A DNA stretch of 16,351 bases from Anaerolineae bacterium (lineage in GTDB: Bacteria; Chloroflexota; Anaerolineae; JAFGEY01): NCBI GenBank assembly GCA_016931365.1, contig JAFGEY010000508.1, forward strand, positions 1 through 16,351. Reading direction: 5' to 3'. Shown here in pieces: positions 7,980-16,166 of this stretch. The notes beneath the pieces were generated by a model. That model worked only from the letters and a program-made list of their open reading frames with translations. It did not search any database and had not been told where the DNA came from. The position numbers were made by a program, and so were the translations under genes. Position 1 is the first letter of the stretch. Every line of letters begins with the position of its first letter.

Positions 7980-7997
7980 GTTTCGTAACCGAAATAG

Positions 7998-8170
7998 TTT
8001 TCGCCGAATACCGCGTTTTGAGGCCTTTGCGTCAAGACAGGTAGCGGGGGAACCAATCAATTGTCCCGCAAGATGGGCGATTGAAGGGGCGAATCCGGGT
8101 TTGAGCAATCCGATAGGGCCAAGTTTTCCGGCCCGATCCCGTCAGCTAACCTCGCAGGCGTTGGAAAAGG
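7998..8170 (+). ncRNA. Cyclic di-AMP riboswitch (ydaO/yuaA class)
   Basis: The conserved blocks of this class appear in order: CGCCGAATA (8002-8010), GGGGGAACCA (8046-8055), GGGGCGAATC (8086-8095), TAGGGCC (8114-8120), CCCGAT, then GTCAGCTAACCTCGCAGGCG (8141-8160). The closing helix can form between TTTTCGCC (7998-8005) and GGCG..GAAAA (8157-8168). The element begins about 12 nt after the predicted transcript start and is followed by an intrinsic terminator. The class senses c-di-AMP and usually turns expression off when bound. Here it controls an ABC exporter gene. Confidence 0.92.
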
Positions 8171-8207
8171 CGGCCGTACAAGGCGTATGGCGAGCCTTTT
8201 CTTTTTT
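8164..8207 (+). terminator. Riboswitch expression platform: intrinsic terminator
   Basis: GAAAAGGC (8164-8171) pairs perfectly with GCCTTTTC (8194-8201). An inner stem GCCGTAC (8173-8179) with GTATGGC (8185-8191) extends it, and T6 (8202-8207) follows. The GAAAA of the left arm is also the 3' strand of the riboswitch closing helix, so aptamer closure and termination compete for the same bases. Confidence 0.9.
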
Positions 8208-8321: not shown

Positions 8322-10121
8322 GTGAAAGTATTTGGCTTTTTGTTCAAGTACGCCAGACATTATATCGGCGCGCTGACGTTGACCGTGTTTGGTATGCTGG
8401 CGCTGGTCGGTGTGCAGTTGTTTGCGCCGTGGATCATCAAAACAATGGTGGCGACGATCAATGACTCGACACTGACGCCCGAATCGGCGACGATCATCAC
8501 CCGGCTGGCTTTGCTGGCGCTGTTGGTTTATCTGGCGCGCGGCGGGCTGCAATTTGTGCGCAGCTATGCCGCACACGTGGCCGGTTGGGGTGTGGTGGCC
8601 GACGCGCGCAAGCACATCTATCGGCATTTGCAGTGGCTTTCGCTGCGCTTTTACGAGGACAAGCAGACTGGGCAACTGATGTCGCGCATGGTCAACGACT
8701 CGGACATGTTTGAGCGGCTGATCGCGCATGCCATCCCTGATGTGACGGTCAATGTTCTGTCGTTTGTCGCAGTGAGTATTGTGCTGGCTTTGTTGAACTG
8801 GCAGTTGCTCCTGCTCAGCATCGTGCCCATCCCATTGATCATCCTGGCGATGCGCGGTTTTGCCAAATATGTGCGCCCGGCCTTTCGCCAACGGCAGCAA
8901 GAGCTGGGCGAGTTGAACGCCACGCTCAATGAAAATCTGTCCGGCATCCGCGAGATCAAGGCCTTTACTCGCGAAGAGACTGAGGCACAGCGCGTTGGCG
9001 AGCGGATCAACAACTACCGTGACTCGATGTTGAACGCGCTGCGGTTAATGGCGACGTTCCAGCCTTTTGTCGAGTTTAGTTCATCGCTGGGCACCATCGT
9101 GTTGATCTATTTTGGCAGCCGCATGGTGCTGGGGCAGACAATGCCGCTGGAAGACCTGGTAGCCTTTTTCCTCTACCTGGATATGTTCTACCAGCCGGTG
9201 CGCGCGCTGAGCGGCGCATGGGAGAGCGTGCAGGAAGCACTGGCCGGAGCCGAGCGGGTGGCCGAGTTGTTGAACGAACAGCCGGACGTGGCCGAAAAGC
9301 CCGGAGCCATCGAATTGAGCGGGCGGGCCAAAGGGGCAATCCGGTTCGAGAACGTCAGTTTCCATTATGTCCAAGAAACCAATGTGCTCGATGGCATCAA
9401 CCTGGACATCAAGTCCGGTTCTGTGGTTGCCCTGGTCGGCCCGACAGGAGTGGGCAAGACCACGCTGGCCAGCCTGATCCCCCGCTTTTATGATGTGACC
9501 GATGGCGCGATCCGACTTGATGACTATGATATCCGTGATCTCAAATTGAAAAGCCTGCGCGAACAGATCAGCATCGTGCTGCAAGACGTGTTTCTGTTTC
9601 ACGGCACGGCGCGCGACAATATCCTTTTTGGTCGCCCCGATGCGACTGAGGCCGAGATGATCGAAGCGGCGCAGATCGCTAACGCCCACGAGTTTATCGT
9701 CAAACTGCCGCAGGGCTATGACACGATCATTGGCGAGCGCGGAGTCAAGCTCTCCGGCGGGCAAAAGCAGCGATTGGCGATTGCCCGCGCCATTCTCAAG
9801 GATGCGCCGGTGCTGATCCTCGACGAGGCAACCTCGTCGGTGGACACGGAAACCGAGCTACTGATCCAGCAGGCACTGGAACGGCTGATGGTTGGGCGGA
9901 CGACGATTATCATCGCTCATCGCCTGTCAACGGTGCGTAGTGCCGACACGATCGTGGTGCTGGAGGGTAGCCGCATCGCCGAGATGGGTACACACGAGCA
10001 GTTAATGGTCCGCGATGGCCTGTACCGCCACCTCAATGAGGTGCAGTTGACAATGGAGCCGCAGTGGGAGATGGTGCGCGAGCGCCGCCAGCGCCTCGTG
10101 GAGGCGGTGGGGCAGAACTGA
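8322..10121 (+). CDS. ABC exporter, fused membrane and ATPase domains (MsbA/LmrA-like)
   Basis: A 599-residue half-transporter. The N-terminal 300 residues hold about six membrane helices of the ABC exporter type. The ATPase domain has Walker A GPTGVGKT at 373, the signature LSGGQKQR at 477, Walker B LILDEATSSVD at 498 and the H-loop His at 533. All catalytic residues are present, so it should act as a homodimer exporting a lipid, peptide or drug across the inner membrane; the substrate cannot be told. GTG 8322 is the start, with AGGAGGG at 8311-8317. It is the only gene between the riboswitch and the downstream terminator, so c-di-AMP level is its likely control. Confidence 0.93.
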   Translation: MKVFGFLFKYARHYIGALTLTVFGMLALVGVQLFAPWIIKTMVATINDSTLTPESATIITRLALLALLVYLARGGLQFVRSYAAHVAGWGVVADARKHIYRHLQWLSLRFYEDKQTGQLMSRMVNDSDMFERLIAHAIPDVTVNVLSFVAVSIVLALLNWQLLLLSIVPIPLIILAMRGFAKYVRPAFRQRQQELGELNATLNENLSGIREIKAFTREETEAQRVGERINNYRDSMLNALRLMATFQPFVEFSSSLGTIVLIYFGSRMVLGQTMPLEDLVAFFLYLDMFYQPVRALSGAWESVQEALAGAERVAELLNEQPDVAEKPGAIELSGRAKGAIRFENVSFHYVQETNVLDGINLDIKSGSVVALVGPTGVGKTTLASLIPRFYDVTDGAIRLDDYDIRDLKLKSLREQISIVLQDVFLFHGTARDNILFGRPDATEAEMIEAAQIANAHEFIVKLPQGYDTIIGERGVKLSGGQKQRLAIARAILKDAPVLILDEATSSVDTETELLIQQALERLMVGRTTIIIAHRLSTVRSADTIVVLEGSRIAEMGTHEQLMVRDGLYRHLNEVQLTMEPQWEMVRERRQRLVEAVGQN

Positions 10122-10317: not shown

Positions 10318-10337
10318 ATATGCATTGTAACATATAT
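10316..10337 (+). promoter_or_regulatory. Candidate ArsR-family operator 1 (autoregulation)
   Basis: ATATATG (10316-10322) and CATATAT (10331-10337) form an inverted repeat with an 8-nt spacer over the transcript start, 16 nt before the regulator's ATG. ArsR/SmtB proteins typically bind AT-rich dyads of this kind. Confidence 0.65.
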
Positions 10338-10352
10338 ATTTTGAGGAATGTC

Positions 10353-10694
10353 ATGCCTGACTATGTTGAATGCACCAAGCTGTTTCATCTGCTTTCCCTG
10401 GAAACCCGCCTGCGCATCCTGGATGAACTGCGCTACGGCGATGCATGTGTCTGTCACTTGCAGCACAGGCTCCGAAAATCACAGGCATACGTGTCACAAC
10501 AACTGCGCGTGCTCAAAGATGCCGGGATCGTCGACACAGACCGCGATGGGGTGAATATTTTCTACCGGCTGGTCAATCCCCTAGCTCGGCAGTTGCTCGA
10601 CATTGTCCTGGGGCCGGTAGATGAAGCCCGCCCAACCGACGGCAGTTGTCCCTGCCCGCGCTGCGCCGGCTGCGGGTGCACGCCATCTATGTAA
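10353..10694 (+). CDS. ArsR/SmtB-family metal(loid)-responsive repressor
   Basis: A 113-residue winged-helix repressor. Residues 8-25 (KLFHLLSLETRLRILDEL) and the recognition helix SQAYVSQQLRVLKDAGIV are typical ArsR. Cys32 and Cys34 in DACVCHL fall where the alpha-3 CxC arsenite site of ArsR lies. The C-terminus adds a cluster at Cys99, 101, 104, 107 and 109 (CPCPRCAGCGC), an unusual second thiol site. ATG 10353 is chosen for its SD GAGGAA at 10343-10348. It has its own consensus promoter with an overlapping operator and its own terminator, and it precedes the permease operon, which has a similar operator. Arsenite or another soft metal(loid) is the likely inducer; this is inferred from the CxC site. 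Confidence 0.93.
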   Translation: MPDYVECTKLFHLLSLETRLRILDELRYGDACVCHLQHRLRKSQAYVSQQLRVLKDAGIVDTDRDGVNIFYRLVNPLARQLLDIVLGPVDEARPTDGSCPCPRCAGCGCTPSM

Positions 10695-10794: not shown

Positions 10795-12294
10795 TTGAAC
10801 GTCTTGTTGTACGTCGTCAATCTGTTACAAACCGGCCTGGGCAGTCTGGCCGCATATCTGGCTGCGCACGTCTTGCTCTGTTTGCTGCCGGCATTTTTCA
10901 TCGCCGGGGCGCTGGCCGCGCTGATCCCCAAGGAAGCGATCACCAGGTACCTGGGCCGCGATGCGCCCAAGTGGATCTCGTACCCGGCATCGGCGCTGGG
11001 CGGCTTTGTGCTGGCAGTCTGCTCGTGTACGATCATGCCGCTCTTTGCCAGCATCCACAAAAAGGGTGCAGGTCTCGGCCCTGCCATCACCTTTTTGTTC
11101 GTCGGGCCGGCGATCAACATCCTGGCCATCTCGTTCACCGGCGTGCAAATCGGCATGGACATTGCCCTGGCGCGGATCATCCTCTCGATTGTCTTTGGCG
11201 TCGGCATCGGCCTGCTGATGGCGCTCATCTTTCGCCGGGACGATGAGGCGCACAACAACGCCGCCAATGGGGCGCGGGCTTTTGCGCAAGGGGCCGTGAA
11301 TGCAGCGCATTCGACAGTTCCAACAACGACCTGGGTCTTTTTCGTGCTGCTGCTCGGCGTGCTGATCGCCGGGACGCTGCAAGTGGGCCTGCTTACGGAC
11401 AGCTATGCCACTTTGAACCTGCACGGCGCGTGGGCCAGTTCTTTCCAGAGCTGGCTGGACAGCGTGGTGCCGCCGAATGCCGCGCTGGGCATCGAGGGGG
11501 TGAGCGTCCACGGCGTGCTGCTGATCGCTTTGCTGGTTGCCATCGGTGTGGCGGCCTGGTTCGGGCTGAACAAGGTGGACGAGGGGTTCAACACCTGGAC
11601 CTGGGCGGCGCTGGGGCTGATCACGCTGACCCTGCTGGTGGCTTCATTCAAAGTGGCGGTCACAGGTATGGGGTTAAGTGTGGGCGTCACCGGCAAGCTG
11701 ATCGCCGAGATCGTCCTGATCGGCGTGGTGTGGTGGATGGCTTTCCGCTTCTTTGAGGCGCACGCAATGCAGGAATGGCTGTGGGAGATGTGGCGTTTCG
11801 TCAAGCAGATCATCCCGCTGCTGCTGGTGGGCGTCTTTGTGGCCGGCATGGCGCGGGCGATCATCCCGGCGACCTGGATTCAGGCCATCGCCGGGCGCAA
11901 CACTTGGTGGGCTAATCTGGTCGGCGTGCTCTTTGGCGTGTTTATGTACTTTCCGACGCTGGTCGAGGTGCCGATCGCCCAGACCTTTCTCTCGCTGGGG
12001 ATGCACCGCGGGCCGCTGCTGGCCTACCTGCTCGCCGATCCGGAGCTGAGCCTGCAATCGATCCTGATCACCAGTTCGGTGATCGGCAAGAGCAAGACGG
12101 CGGTGTACGTGATTTTGGTCACCATTTTCAGCACCCTGTCGGGCCTGCTCTTTGGCGCGTGGGTGAACGGCGCCAACGCCTGGCTGATCGTTGGCGGCAC
12201 GGCGGCGGGCATCGCAGCGATTGCCGCAGCGAGTATGCTCTTGAGCGGCTTGAACAAGCCGCGTAAAATATCAACAGAGGAGAAAATAATATGA
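10795..12294 (+). CDS. ArsP/YraQ-type (DUF318) membrane permease
   Basis: A 499-residue inner-membrane protein with about ten to twelve hydrophobic segments in two related halves. The first half has the family block LAVCSCTIMPLFASIHKKG (Cys76 and Cys78) followed by FLFVGPAINILAI; the second half has YFPTLVEVPIAQTFLSLGM and ITSSVIGKSKTAVYV. This matches the permease family that includes ArsP, an exporter of trivalent organoarsenicals, but members of unknown substrate are common. TTG 10795 is the start because AGGAGG (10784-10789) precedes it by 5 nt. It overlaps the next gene by 4 nt (ATGA). Its neighbours, an ArsR regulator and small thioredoxins, support a metal(loid) efflux role. Confidence 0.88.
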   Translation: MNVLLYVVNLLQTGLGSLAAYLAAHVLLCLLPAFFIAGALAALIPKEAITRYLGRDAPKWISYPASALGGFVLAVCSCTIMPLFASIHKKGAGLGPAITFLFVGPAINILAISFTGVQIGMDIALARIILSIVFGVGIGLLMALIFRRDDEAHNNAANGARAFAQGAVNAAHSTVPTTTWVFFVLLLGVLIAGTLQVGLLTDSYATLNLHGAWASSFQSWLDSVVPPNAALGIEGVSVHGVLLIALLVAIGVAAWFGLNKVDEGFNTWTWAALGLITLTLLVASFKVAVTGMGLSVGVTGKLIAEIVLIGVVWWMAFRFFEAHAMQEWLWEMWRFVKQIIPLLLVGVFVAGMARAIIPATWIQAIAGRNTWWANLVGVLFGVFMYFPTLVEVPIAQTFLSLGMHRGPLLAYLLADPELSLQSILITSSVIGKSKTAVYVILVTIFSTLSGLLFGAWVNGANAWLIVGGTAAGIAAIAAASMLLSGLNKPRKISTEEKII

Positions 12295-12527
12295 TCGTCA
12301 AGGTTCTGGGCATGGGCTGCCCCAAGTGCAAACGGCTGGAGCAGTTAGCCAAAGAAGCAGCGCAAGAATTGGGCATCGAAGCGACCTTTGCCAAGGTAGA
12401 CACGCTGGATGGGATCATGGCCTACGGCGTAGCTTCAACCCCGGCACTGGTCATCGACGAAGCGGTCAAGGTGTCGGGACGGCTGCCATCCAAAGACGAG
12501 ATCAAGGGTTGGATGCAGACGGCATAA
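12291..12527 (+). CDS. Small thioredoxin-like protein 1 (redox-active disulfide protein 2 type)
   Basis: A 78-residue glutaredoxin/thioredoxin-fold protein of the small redox-active disulfide protein type, often encoded beside DUF318 permeases. MIVKVLGMGCPKCKRLEQLA carries the active-site CPKC (Cys10, Cys13), and the STPALVI segment supplies the cis-proline. No signal peptide, so it is cytoplasmic. It has a GAGGAG SD and overlaps the permease stop by 4 nt (ATGA), showing translational coupling. Likely role: thiol transfer to the permease or to a metal(loid) substrate (inference). Confidence 0.88.
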   Translation: MIVKVLGMGCPKCKRLEQLAKEAAQELGIEATFAKVDTLDGIMAYGVASTPALVIDEAVKVSGRLPSKDEIKGWMQTA

Positions 12528-12539
12528 TTCAAGGAGGCG

Positions 12540-12800
12540 ATGATGATTCAGATCAAGGTTTTTGGCACCACGCCGCCCTGCGCCAACTGCAAGCGCGCCG
12601 AAGATCAGGCGCACAAGGCGGCGGCGCAGTTTCCGGGCCAGGTCGAGGTGCTCAAGCTCGATGCGCTGGGGCCGGAGGCGGAAGCGTATGGAATTATGTC
12701 AACGCCGCTGGTGGTGGTAAACGACGAGGTGGTGGGAAGAGGCAAGGTCGTTCCGGCCCATCGACTGGCCGAGGTCATTAAACAAAAATTAGGAGGGTAA
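12540..12800 (+). CDS. Small thioredoxin-like protein 2
   Basis: An 86-residue thioredoxin-fold protein with a PPCANCKRAED active site (CxxC), a MSTPLVVVNDEVV strand with the cis-proline, and a C-terminal helix. AGGAGG (12532-12537) sits only 2 nt before ATG 12540 and 5 nt before the next ATG at 12543, so translation may begin at 12543. It is 12 nt after protein 1 and 4 nt before protein 3. Similar in size and layout to both but clearly diverged. Cytoplasmic; partner unknown. Confidence 0.85.
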   Translation: MMIQIKVFGTTPPCANCKRAEDQAHKAAAQFPGQVEVLKLDALGPEAEAYGIMSTPLVVVNDEVVGRGKVVPAHRLAEVIKQKLGG

Positions 12801-12804
12801 CAGA

Positions 12805-13074
12805 ATGGTCAAACTGGAAGTGTTCAGCGGCGATCCGCCGTGCCCCGGCTGTGTGGCGCTGGTCGAACTGGCGCAAAAGGTCGCGGCGAAATACGAGGGC
12901 GAACTAGAGCTGACCGTGCTCAAAGGCGCCGAAGCGATGGAGAAATTTGAACAGTACAAACTTTTTTGCGTGCCGGCGGCGGTGGTGAATGGCTCAATCC
13001 GCATCGAAGGGATGTGCCCCAGCGAGGCAACGCTCAACAATGCGTTCAGGGAGGGCGGGCTGTGTCTAAAATAA
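12805..13074 (+). CDS. Small thioredoxin-like protein 3
   Basis: An 89-residue thioredoxin-fold protein with a CPGC active site (Cys13, Cys16) after VFSGDPP. Two extra cysteines lie in LFCVPAAVV, just before the cis-proline, and in GMCPSE, and a last one is in the C-terminal GGLCLK, so it has more thiols than a normal small thioredoxin. The SD is AGGAGG about 9 nt before ATG 12805. Its end overlaps the GTG start of protein 4 by 13 nt. Function is inferred from the fold and operon only. Confidence 0.82.
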   Translation: MVKLEVFSGDPPCPGCVALVELAQKVAAKYEGELELTVLKGAEAMEKFEQYKLFCVPAAVVNGSIRIEGMCPSEATLNNAFREGGLCLK

Positions 13075-13328
13075 AGATCGAAGCGTTTGTGTCGGTGCCA
13101 CCCTGCTCCGGCGGGGTGGCGGTCAAGCGGCTGCTCAAGCAGATCGAGGCCGAGTATGGTGACCAGATCGAGATCACCTTTCACACCGGGCCGGGCGATC
13201 CGGCCTGGGCCGAGTATGCCATCACCAACGCCCCCGCACTGGTGGTGGGTGACCTGGTCAAGTTTGTGGGACTTGCGCCGAGCAAAGAGAGCCTGGTCGG
13301 CGCGCTGCGTGAAGCGGGGCTGGAATAG
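13062..13328 (+). CDS. Small thioredoxin-like protein 4, with CSGG in place of CxxC
   Basis: An 88-residue protein starting at GTG 13062, chosen because GGGAGGG lies just upstream and VSKIKIEAFVSVPPC aligns with the starts of the three preceding proteins. The active-site position reads CSGG (Cys15, second Cys replaced by Gly18); the codons are tgc tcc ggc ggg, so no UGA is hidden there. The cis-proline region (TNAPALVVGDLV) is kept. A single-Cys site could still form mixed disulfides or bind a metal but cannot form the normal intramolecular disulfide. Its TAG stop is directly followed by the ATG of the selenoprotein gene with no gap. Confidence 0.8.
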   Translation: MSKIKIEAFVSVPPCSGGVAVKRLLKQIEAEYGDQIEITFHTGPGDPAWAEYAITNAPALVVGDLVKFVGLAPSKESLVGALREAGLE

Positions 13329-13631
13329 ATGCGCGCTCGCATCGAGACAGACTGGCTGCGTCGGAACATTCAGCGCTGGAATGGGACGATTACGATCCAG
13401 AACCAGATGGTGTTCGAGACTTGATGAGGCGTCCAATATCAAGGCCCGGCGGGCCTGTCAGGAAAACCGGAATACACCGAAGCGTTCATCCCATTTCAAG
13501 CCGACGGTGCGGACATTTACCTGGCGCGCGATCTCTTGGCGGGCCTGGAGCCGGGCACGGGGCGCCTGCGCGTGCGTTTTCCCGGCTATGGCGATGCCTG
13601 GCTGTGCTTTGAAGGCGCATCCATTTTGTGA
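13329..13631 (+). CDS. Predicted CC/Se-motif (HesB-like) selenoprotein with adjacent UGA-UGA codons
   Basis: Read with UGA as stop this is a 31-codon fragment, but the same frame continues past TGA TGA (13422-13427) to the TGA at 13629, giving 100 residues. The two halves form one plausible protein: IETDWLRRNIQRWNGTITI, then ET-U-U-G (positions 32-33), then GKPEYTEAFIPFQADGADIY and a C-terminal LRVRFPG..WLCFEG. This matches my memory of the small CC/Se-motif family, in which a CC pair is sometimes CU, UC or UU. A self-complementary hairpin begins 14-17 nt after the UGAs. ATG 13329 directly abuts the preceding stop. The biochemical role is unknown; redox or metal(loid) binding is inferred from the motif and neighbours. 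The alternative is a plain pseudogene. Confidence 0.8.
13442..13456 (+). promoter_or_regulatory. Predicted bacterial SECIS hairpin 1
   Basis: AGGCCC (13442-13447) and GGGCCT (13451-13456) are fully complementary around GGC (or AGGCC/GGCCT around a 5-nt CGGCG loop). The loop begins 23 nt after the first UGA and 20 nt after the second, with G among its first two bases, as recalled for the bacterial SECIS model. The core GGCCCGGCGGGCC is repeated exactly after the UGA at 14511. Confidence 0.7.
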
Positions 13632-13648
13632 CTCAAGGAGTTCATTTT

Positions 13649-13723
13649 ATGCGACCGGTGCTTGATATGCGCAAATGTCCGGCGCAAAAAGAAATCTGCC
13701 AGCCTCTGTGGCACTGGGCGTGA
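13649..13723 (+). pseudogene. N-terminal remnant of a 4Fe-4S ferredoxin-like protein
   Basis: A 24-codon frame, MRPVLDMRKCPAQKEICQPL, then a few unrelated residues and a stop. The start has a good SD, AAGGAG (13635-13640), 8 nt before the ATG. The sequence resembles the N-terminus of small 4Fe-4S proteins (PVLD..KCPAQ..C), where a second Cys group and a ferredoxin domain would normally follow; they are missing. From about 13700 the sequence, in another frame, becomes the inside of a CcdA-like protein. A deletion that joined two genes explains both halves best. A genuine short peptide is less likely. Confidence 0.5.
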
Positions 13724-14178
13724 TCGCCTCGCTGGTCGGCGGGCTGGTCGGCGGCGCGTCGCGGGTGTGGTATTACTTGGTGGCAGCGGTCTGCCTGGTC
13801 ATCGGCCTGCACATCCTGGGCGCGATCCGCCTGCCGGAGATCGGTTGGCTGGCTCGCCTGCGCGAGCGGGTGCGGCTGCGCGGCGTGCCCGGCGCGCTGG
13901 CCCTGGGTCTGGTCTCGGGGCTGGTGGCCTCGCAGTACGCCACGCCGGTGCTGGCGGCTATCCTGACCTACGTGATGGCCCAGCAGGGCGGGTTGGTCTA
14001 CGGCGCCGCCCTGTTGTTTGTGTATGCGCTGGGGCGCGGCGTGCCCATCGTGCTGGCCGGCACGTTTGCCGGCGTGGTCAAGCAGTTGCAGGCGTTGGGC
14101 CGCTGGATGCCCCTGATCGAAAAGGCCAGCGGCGTGGTTGTTTTGTGTGTCGGATTTTACCTGATATGGATCGCCTGA
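13675..14178 (+). pseudogene. CcdA/DsbD-like transmembrane protein, N-terminally truncated and lacking its cysteines
   Basis: The 167-residue frame contains about five hydrophobic segments matching the C-terminal two-thirds of CcdA, which moves electrons across the membrane: WYYLVAAVCLVIGLHILGAI, then LASQYATPVLAAILTYVM, VYALGRGVPIVLAG and a last helix. The first helix with its SPC motif is absent. In the second motif, where CcdA has SPCATP, the codons give S-Q-Y (Gln87, Tyr88), so neither redox Cys is present. ATG 13675 has no SD and lies inside the ferredoxin-like remnant. It is probably a dead gene or, less likely, a repurposed membrane protein. Confidence 0.65.
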
Positions 14179-14243: not shown

Positions 14244-15299
14244 ATGACAAATCGAGTGATCGGACGAGCCTTATCGTGGCTATGGCTCGTGTTTCTGGTA
14301 GTGGCCTGTCAGAGCAGCAGTCCGGCGGCGCTGCCCGATCCAACCGCGCGCGTATCTCCGACCATCCGGCCGACGAACTTGCCGGTAGAGCAGCCCGGCC
14401 CAACATCCGCCGTAGAAAGCACGCCGACCGCGCCTGTCGAGTCGGCGGCAGTCTTGACGTTGACCATCCTGCATACCGGGCAGGTGTATGGCGAGGTCCT
14501 GCCCTGCGGTTGAGGGGTGCCCAAGGGAGGGTTGGCCCGGCGGGCCACCGCAATTGTGCAGTTGCGCCAGGAGCATGCGAACGTGCTGCTGCTGGACAGT
14601 GGGGATAGTTTGTTCCGGGGCGGGGTCTCGACCGAACTAGAAGACCCCGGCCAGGGTGCGTGGGTGATTGAGGCGATGAACTTGATGGGCTACGATGCCA
14701 TAGCGATGGGAGACAGAGAGTTGCAGGCTCTACTTCCCGTGGTGCAGTCCCGTTTTGAGGAGGCGCAGTTTCCGATCCTCTCGGCCAACGTGAAGGTAGG
14801 TAGTGAGCTGCCCAATGTGCAACCGTACTTTTTGCACCAGACAAGCGGCGGGCATACGGTCGCCATCGTTGGCGTCACATCCGAGCAAGCTGGGCAGCGG
14901 TTGGCGGCCCTCGGCCTGGATCTGGTCGTGCAGGATCCGGTTGCGGGGGTTCGTCAGGCTGTAGGCGAGGCCGCGAAAAGCGCCGACATTGTCATTCTGC
15001 TGTCCAATCTGAAGCGATCGGAGACGGAAGCGCTGGCTCAGGCTGTCCCCGGCATAGATGTGATCATTGGCATCTACGAAGGTGGGCAGCGCGACCCGGT
15101 TGCAATTCCAGGTGCGGAAGGCCAGGTGGTGCTTCAGGCTTCGGGCATATTGGGCGAATACCTGGGCCTGTTGACCCTGCATTTCGATGAGCACGGAGAG
15201 GTGAAAAGCTTTGAAGGGCGCTCGTTGGCGCTCACCGATCGCTATGAGGACGATCCGCAGATAGTCGAACTCTTTCGCCGCTATGCGTCCAAGCCATAG
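14244..15299 (+). CDS. Predicted selenolipoprotein of the 5'-nucleotidase/metallophosphatase-like family (UGA at 14511)
   Basis: A 351-residue exported lipoprotein if the in-frame UGA at 14511-14513 is read through. The signal peptide ends LVVAC (lipid-modified Cys22), then a Ser/Thr/Pro-rich linker (about 24-75). The domain begins LTILHTGQVYGEVLPCG-U (Sec90), then VPKGGLARRATAI, NVLLLDSGDSL, MNLMGYDAIAMGDREL and a beta-rich remainder, as in UshA-like N-terminal domains. Relatives recalled have a Cys pair such as PCGC here, so Sec replaces Cys. The usual metal ligands (HTND-x-H, GNHE) are mostly altered, so phosphatase activity is doubtful. The 13-nt hairpin found after the other UGA pair follows 25 nt downstream. 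The SD before ATG 14244 is weak (AAAGGGA). Without readthrough it splits into two fragments. Confidence 0.8.
14530..14549 (+). promoter_or_regulatory. Predicted bacterial SECIS hairpin 2
   Basis: GG-T-TGGCCC (14530-14538, one T bulged) pairs with GGGCCACC (14542-14549) around a GGC loop at 14539-14541. The loop begins 25 nt after the UGA. The core GGCCCGGCGGGCC (14534-14546) is identical to that after the UGA-UGA site but starts at codon position 3 instead of 1, so protein coding does not explain the match. Confidence 0.7.
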
Positions 15300-15625: not shown

Positions 15626-16166
15626 ATGTATCGATACGTCTTTCTTGGTTCGTTTTGTCTTTTGATCGCACTTGGGCTGCGTGGACCAACCACAAGCGAG
15701 GCCGACCGATCAGGTCATCCCAGACACTGCCACGCCGGCGCCAATACCGGCTGCTACGGCGACTGCGCCAACCGTCGTCGTGATTGTGCCGACGCCTGCT
15801 GTTTCTGTGCCAACGCCGACGGCGACCGCCAATCCGTATATGGGCCGCGACGGTTACGCGCACCTGAGGCCAGCGCAGTTGGCCGAAATGCTGCAAGATA
15901 AGGATTTTTTGCTGATCAACACACACGTGCCATACGGCGTGGAAATCGCCCAGACCGACGCGCACATTCCCCTCGACGACGAGGGGCTGTGGTTGAGCCA
16001 CTATCCGGCCGACAAGGCGGCCAAGATCGTACTTTACTGCCGCAGCGGGCGCTGGTCAACGGTGGCGGCCAAGTCGCTGGTCGAGGCGGGCTATACCGGC
16101 ATCTGGCATCTGGATGGCGGCATGGTCGCCTGGCAGGCCGCCAGGCTGCCATGCCAAAAACAATAA
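15626..16166 (+). CDS. Rhodanese-domain lipoprotein with an apparent frame break near 15671
   Basis: The rhodanese domain is intact from about 15840: LINTHVPYGVEI, then YCRSGRWS with the active-site Cys and HLDGGMVAWQ, preceded by a Pro/Thr-rich linker. It should accept or transfer sulfur or selenium via a persulfide at that Cys. In the domain's frame the upstream sequence hits a stop at 15663. A different frame, starting at ATG 15626, encodes a good signal peptide (MYRYVFLGSFCLLIALG). Joining them by a one-base shift at 15671-15673 gives ..LLIALGC.., a plausible lipobox. So the gene is a lipoprotein with a frameshift, a sequencing error or a programmed shift. The unbroken frame runs 15672-16166. 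No SD is seen. Confidence 0.7.

Follow-up and report, generated by a model that had tools for sequence, protein, structure and literature searches.

Insertion of selenocysteine (Sec, U) in bacteria is usually described as one hairpin per UGA codon. The algal protein disulfide isomerase (PDI) PDI_e, with the motif GUGUU, is called the first protein with two consecutive Sec by its authors (PMC7539508, in the available part of the article); it shares this pair with the protein considered here but is unrelated to it, being an algal PDI with a thioredoxin-like domain. For bacteria, the literature searched yielded no report of tandem Sec, a mention in Haft and Tolstoy 2025 or Haft and Gwadz 2023 not being excluded. 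The available part of a 2026 inventory (PMC13188914) has no UU motif among 119 families, though some entries give no motif, and enters the family NF041239 with a CxxU motif and one Sec. We analysed a stretch of 16,351 nucleotides from an Anaerolineae bacterium (contig JAFGEY010000508.1), here called the window. A model reading the letters alone had proposed in it a small protein with two adjacent in-frame UGA codons (the original prediction) and had called tandem Sec rare, which agrees with the single earlier report that we found, in algae. We predict, with high confidence, that the TGA TGA of this gene (the UU gene; Table 1) is decoded as two adjacent Sec. What would be new is tandem Sec as an invariant trait of a clade within NF041239, a known selenoprotein family, as sequence comparison predicts.

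The frame is as originally proposed: from ATG 13329, which abuts the TAG stop (13326-13328) of the fourth of four thioredoxin-type genes with zero gap, 100 codons broken solely by TGA TGA (13422-13427) run on to 13629. Two observations count against reading much into this. The hexamer TGATGA is not rare in the window (12 occurrences versus 8.9 expected), and a neighbouring frame, 13087-13665, is also open across the stretch, so that the UU frame alone is little proof. We set this second frame aside as coding; no support for it was sought past the listing of open reading frames (ORFs). The evidence that goes beyond chance is the conservation of TGATGA in relatives, which were not found directly. 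A single-sequence search with the UU protein gave two candidates and no match, a genome scan with it 369 pattern matches and no relative, and a plasmid search with the protein of a homologous locus (L081) no relatives. The family came to light because a genome scan with the permease of the window fetched 80 loci, mostly from Chloroflexota metagenome-assembled genomes, and four of these encode a homologue, each with TGATGA. Profile A1, made from the window protein and these four homologues, matched 8 of the 41 genomes of the collected loci and 25 of 396 genomes from the class of G001, the genome of an Anaerolineae locus. In total, homologues occupy 30 places in 28 genomes, one being a C-terminal piece (L090) that stops short of the UU site, and TGATGA is kept in all 29 places that cover it. 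A third TGA in L092 and L093 and a TAA in L106 are the terminal stops of those genes.

The 27-row DNA alignment and the tree exclude L089 (a deletion after UU and a fused frame) and L110 (at a contig end), and the protein alignment A2 excludes L089, L110 and L097, whose protein is identical to that of L098. The window copy is a divergent member of the family, 17-48% identical in protein sequence to the 26 aligned relatives, and it has all the residues that are invariant across 27 sequences (UU, G42, P47 and G88). The relatives' genes are under purifying selection past the UGAs. In 12 pairs of relatives, picked by eye, with sequences shared between pairs and none close to the window copy, the ratio of nonsynonymous to synonymous substitution (dN/dS) was 0.04-0.44 downstream of the hairpin described below in 11 pairs, one pair being saturated, and 0.09-0.34 upstream of the UGAs; in a control shifted one base off frame, synonymous change exceeded nonsynonymous change in 0 of 12 pairs. 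On the grounds of conservation and dN/dS, we set a chance open frame aside. The downstream coding constraint to which the original prediction had tied itself is thus present in the relatives, and its claim that the flanks form one protein is supported by the purifying selection that relatives show before and after the UGAs and by the confident structural model of the joined halves.

A protein database search with profile A1 found 127 proteins, and all 120 of those listed matched a larger profile again. Among these 120, 118 align only beyond the UU site. One internal Met is the first residue in 90 of the 118, which is what gene callers halting at the double UGA would produce; the remaining two of the 120 (Logan records) span the site and read WW, as expected if UGA was called Trp. 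The proposal that gene callers miss the intact gene therefore stands, and ordinary annotation hides the family; truncation of nearly all its database entries at this point presumably explains why the clade has been overlooked. Neither CC nor any Cys occurs at the UU site in the 120 listed relatives. Cys homologues, which the original prediction had placed at residues 32-33, are thus missing among close relatives and are found in the wider NF041239 family.

NF041239, the CC/Se motif family, is the sole NCBIfam match of the window protein (9.6e-07, 28.8 bits, cut-off 40); four relatives score 33.7-39.6 bits, so that all five scanned members lie below the cut-off. The likeness comprises a similar size, a GG followed by a strand and the CC/U site, and the UU protein has the CC/Se pair after the first long strand that marks the family. 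Among 251 genomes from the phylum to which G001 belongs, NF041239 gave three matches, all below cut-off, namely the CC genes L131 and L132 and G001's own UU gene. Among 345 genomes from the phylum of G040 (the genome of a Desulfobacterales locus), it matched 14 places in 12 genomes, 8 of these genomes over cut-off, with U then C in two places (L133, L137), U then a non-Cys residue in nine (L134, L135, L136, L138, L139, L140, L141, L145, L146), CC in L142, neither residue in L143 and UU in L144. The UU profile, in the same 345 genomes, matched one, which carries a UC gene; L144, a UU gene of Desulfobacterota type, was recovered by NF041239 only. The double UGA aligns with CC in L131, L132 and L142 and with UC in L133 and L137, in-frame UGA thus facing Cys, and it lies at the CC position of the family, where the original prediction had put it. 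Its assignment to a CC/Se, HesB-like type holds for the position of the pair; the score is below cut-off, and the HesB-like selenoprotein TIGR01911, like MbdU NF045648, is absent from the NCBIfam matches at E <= 0.1, so both of these identities were dropped. A Pfam scan of the window protein and relatives found nothing relevant; PF28096 is precomputed for P0002, P0004, P0014 and other database relatives, and the Pfam copy used gave no match.

In a FastTree phylogeny of 46 sequences, a clade of 30 members (support 0.83) comprises the UU genes and both WW records, and L144 pairs with the UC gene L137 (support 0.93). Tentatively, given such short sequences, L144 may represent an independent second origin of tandem Sec. 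A Cys three residues before the first U (CxxUU) is present in 12 of the 26 aligned relatives and fits the CxxU motif of NF041239 in the available part of PMC13188914, from whose single Sec the clade differs by two adjacent ones. Ten of the 11 single-U members (L133-L141, L145 and L146, the exception being L137) have a Cys near the C terminus, as against 3 of 27 UU proteins with a Cys in the last 20 residues. The second Sec of the UU proteins may stand in for this Cys. Altogether, the note's reading as tandem Sec is supported by TGATGA in 29 of 29 places, by Cys-containing homologues and by hairpins downstream of the UGAs.

Starting at the first UGA, 57 bases align gap-free across 27 relatives, and all 27 keep six inner pairs of a hairpin whose loop, GGUC in 25 and GGUU in two (L106, L107), begins 21 nt after the second UGA and 24 nt after the first. 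The closing pair is A-U in 10, C-G in 17 and broken in none, a compensatory change in which the Ser codon TCA is accompanied by Leu CTG or TTG and the synonymous TCC by Arg CGG; L088 has an additional double change from A-U to G-C. Covariation is 0.244 compared with a shuffled mean of 0.148, slid controls giving at most 0.048, and 92.6% of cells are paired compared with 86.4% in shuffles; 0 of 500 shuffles reach either value. L089 has no hairpin, and L110 is cut by its contig end. In eight of the A-U copies, L106 and L107 being the exceptions, the loop with its closing pair reads AGGUCU, a sequence shared with Escherichia coli fdhF (a 51-nt query matching 5368 of 5426 genomes, both rows shown being annotated fdhF), where the loop lies 18 nt from the UGA. 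In the Sec-type selD genes of UU genomes, GGU follows 32 nt past the UGA in 19 of 22 copies. A bacterial UGA-to-loop distance of 16-37 nt is given in the available part of PMC10778597, and the distances in the relatives and in the window (20 and 23 nt) lie inside it. Since these values bracket 21 and 24 nt, one hairpin could plausibly serve both UGAs, and we infer that one does.

The window copy lacks the relatives' motif and has GGCCC-GGC-GGGCC in its place, with 20 nt from the second UGA to the loop and 23 nt from the first. The window contains two copies of this 13-mer and no more, one downstream of the UU codons (13443) and one downstream of the in-frame UGA in an UshA-like gene (14534); 200 shuffles contain none. 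The 13-mer starts at codon position 1 in one gene and at position 3 in the other (15 and 20 bases past the UGA), so protein sequence does not explain the identity. The UshA-like gene, a second predicted selenoprotein gene in the UU operon, is visible only in pieces as stop-free ORFs; its match to NF041198 is below cut-off, and that family has a CxU motif in the available part of PMC13188914. Its PCGU site is kept in five distinct genes (window, L025, L116, which is the same gene as that of L088, L124 and L125); the count leaves out frames in L029, L059 and L085/L113, which fit the PCG pattern but have no UshA-like appearance. Over 30 bases from the UGA, L025 is identical to the window, and the other thirteen blocks agree at 7-26 of 30 (ungapped). 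The hairpin is UAGCCC-GGC-GGGCUA in L124 and L125 and UGGCUC-GUC-GAGCCA in L116, its pairing being maintained in these three partly via synonymous changes. The hairpin of the window presumably also directs Sec in the UU gene.

Several results speak against these hairpins as Sec signals. Among relatives, pairing fails in 12 of 27 for one of the two outermost pairs and in 4 for the other, the three double-change pairs are reached by 46 of 500 shuffles and the further pair types by 300 of 500, both unremarkable, and the shuffle control is inflated by related sequences. In the window, the 59-nt stretch 13422-13480 folds no more stably than shuffles (z -0.13), and over 48 nt RNAfold prefers a different fold for the UshA-like gene of the window and for that of L125.

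The original prediction had also pointed to the Sec machinery, which is found in most of the relatives' genomes, the ones covered here: SelB or SelD at least is over cut-off in 25 of the 28 UU genomes. SelB is over cut-off in 23 of them (the exceptions being G036, G050, with a strong partial match, G086, G159 and G389), in 23 of 32 other genomes and in 2 of 14 control genomes, and SelD in 21 of 28. In a scan that scored only 78 candidates per genome, tRNA-Sec exceeded 60 bits, a threshold of our own, in 26 of 41 genomes, including four of eight UU genomes (G003, G006, G015, G037), and the Rfam cut-off in 30 of 41, yet also in 5 of 14 controls. The Sec trait is common in the class; it permits decoding of the double UGA and does not single out the UU gene. 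The ABC transporter of the window is at best 77% identical to one in 39 genomes searched (G011, no SelB over cut-off; next, 76% in G005, SelB over cut-off), so no close relative of the window genome was among them. A single hairpin in the coding region would let SelB load Sec twice in a row at UGA UGA, and an invariant double UGA over one hairpin would be natural material for studying the reloading of SelB with Sec-tRNA at the immediately following codon and the strictness of the spacing.

Table 1. Features of the UU locus (window positions)
Feature	Position	Strand	Evidence
ArsR/SmtB-type metalloregulator	10320..10694	+	NF033788 80.6 bits, cut-off 55
ArsP_1-type permease	10795..12294	+	PF03773 2.2e-66
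Putative small thioredoxin-type gene 1 (CPKC)	12291..12527	+	ORF
Small thioredoxin 2 (CANC)	12540..12800	+	PF13192 1e-13
Small thioredoxin 3 (CPGC)	12805..13074	+	PF13192 4.1e-11
Small thioredoxin 4 (PPCSGG, second active-site Cys absent)	13062..13328	+	PF13192 24.2 bits, just below cut-off 24.8
UU gene	13329..13631	+	100 codons, two in-frame UGA; own stop TGA 13629-13631
TGA TGA, predicted Sec32-Sec33	13422..13427	+	TGATGA in 29/29 homologous places spanning the site
Hairpin AGGCCC-GGC-GGGCCU, 6 bp, predicted selenocysteine insertion sequence (SECIS)	13442..13456	+	Minimum-free-energy fold of 13422-13480
DsbD_TM fragment, N-terminal part missing	13675..14178	+	PF02683 7.9e-15, profile 61-215 of 219
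UshA-like gene with PCG-UGA	14244..15299	+	NF041198 UshA_like_PCGU 2.4e-42, 145.2 bits, below cut-off 275
In-frame TGA of UshA-like gene, predicted Sec	14511..14513	+	PCGU conserved
Second copy of 13-nt hairpin GGCCCGGCGGGCC, predicted SECIS of UshA-like gene	14534..14546	+	13-mer match
Rhodanese-type protein	15672..16166	+	PF00581 1.3e-10

A model of the read-through protein (predicted local distance difference test, pLDDT, 90.8; predicted template-modelling score, pTM, 0.82) suggests that it may have an IscA/HesB-like fold. A PDB search by sequence found nothing. In the structure search (VIA), the match is weak; six of the ten rows name IscA, SufA or an Fe-S biosynthesis protein in their titles, and we take the other four (AQ_1857, HI1723, DsrR and YneR) to be of the same IscA type. 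Residues 2-92 align on residues 2-92 of 1s98, and compared with IscA/SufA/HesB structures (1s98, 1r94, 2d2a) the UU pair would lie near the first Cys ligand of IscA, presumably Cys35. The A-type carriers IscA and HesB have a C-terminal CxC ligand pair; neither the window protein nor any of the 26 aligned relatives has a CxC motif.

On one strand of the window, ArsR, ArsP_1 and four thioredoxins precede the UU gene, and the DsbD_TM fragment, the UshA-like gene and the rhodanese follow it. Around the relatives' genes, we counted neighbours on the same strand within 6 kb in 22 loci, a count that has no background rate and leaves out the short contigs of G050, G065, G082, G134, G240 and G394 and the second place of G002. 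ArsR is present in 11 loci, ArsP in 8, Acr3 in 4 and the UshA-like gene in 3; 15 of 22 have ArsR, ArsP or Acr3, as do 9 of the 14 loci from the class search, which are independent of the permease or its genomes. Because of these neighbours and the frequent thioredoxin-type genes, we propose a function in metalloid handling. The UU protein would be a small cytoplasmic protein that presents paired seleniums on an IscA/HesB-like fold and binds or reduces a soft metal or metalloid; its vicinal diselenol would hold or reduce As(III)-like metalloids for efflux, and the thioredoxins encoded alongside would recycle it. Chemically, adjacent Sec residues would make for an extreme ligand of soft metals or a strongly reducing diselenide. 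A functional analogy, with no homology asserted, is the arsenic metallochaperone ArsD, whose As(III) site is formed by Cys12, Cys13 and Cys18 (PMC4562236, available part). This function is the most conjectural part of our reading, and we offer it tentatively, at somewhat less than even chances. The composite picture, in which a clade with obligatory adjacent Sec would use one SECIS for two insertions in an IscA-like metalloid trap or carrier, L144 being a second origin, comes closer to an even chance and still falls short of it.

Other roles are conceivable for the same pair. The two Sec could form a diselenide that takes electrons from the neighbouring thioredoxins and hands them on with no metal bound. 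Besides the four thioredoxin-type genes ahead of the window gene, small thioredoxins are found in 9 of the 22 loci and thioredoxin-DsbD fusions in 8, and most uncharacterised selenoproteins are expected to be redox proteins (PMC13188914, available part); the model, however, matches the IscA type and not the thioredoxin type, and we consider such a redox carrier unlikely. No more and no less doubtful is an assembly factor, in which the Sec pair on the IscA-like scaffold would carry an iron, sulfur or tungsten cofactor for an adjacent maturase or oxidoreductase. The fold match agrees with it, as do the Fe-S protein PF04060 in 13 loci, a dicluster ferredoxin in 10 and a tungsten-cofactor oxidoreductase radical SAM maturase in 9 (four scanned by hidden Markov model, three of these over cut-off, the rest by BLAST), the maturase gene coming directly after the UU gene in L120, L122, L123 and L128. 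The operon of the window has no such maturase gene, though, and the C-terminal CxC ligands of IscA are absent. Several loci combine metalloid-type and tungsten-type neighbours.

The remaining alternatives concern the reading of the gene itself, and they survive less well than either rival function. The family could be real and the window gene a decaying relative that is no longer translated through: it has diverged far more than its neighbours, its hairpin is changed and a broken DsbD gene adjoins it. We regard this as quite improbable, as the 100-codon frame is open apart from UU, the invariant UU, G42, P47 and G88 are kept and the hairpin equals the one after the UshA-like UGA. Still less probable is that only one UGA is read as Sec, or that the double UGA is a regulated stop giving mostly a 31-residue peptide. 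Bacterial Sec insertion is often inefficient, and 11 of the 14 NF041239 matches in the G040 phylum have UGA at the first position only; yet both UGAs are equally invariant (29 of 29), and the downstream coding sequence is under selection. Reassignment of UGA to Trp or Gly in these organisms, which the two WW records might suggest, has a negligible chance, since 20 of the 28 complete UU genes, that of the window included, terminate at a UGA.

Some further observations concern the surroundings of the UU genes. Thioredoxins 3 and 4 of the window share 78-83% identity with the ones ahead of the UU gene in L112, whereas the UU proteins are just 32-35% identical. The DsbD_TM sequence of the window lacks the N-terminal part (MGPCN in L112) and reads SQYATP where L112 and L115 have SQCATP; it is possibly a broken gene or an assembly fault. 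In L089 (1033-2415), the UU frame runs stop-free into the frame of an Acr3-type arsenite transporter, 55% identical to that of L130, and the hairpin is lost. Finally, a c-di-AMP riboswitch (RF00379, 78.2 bits; 7992-8175) closely precedes the ABC transporter gene at 8322.
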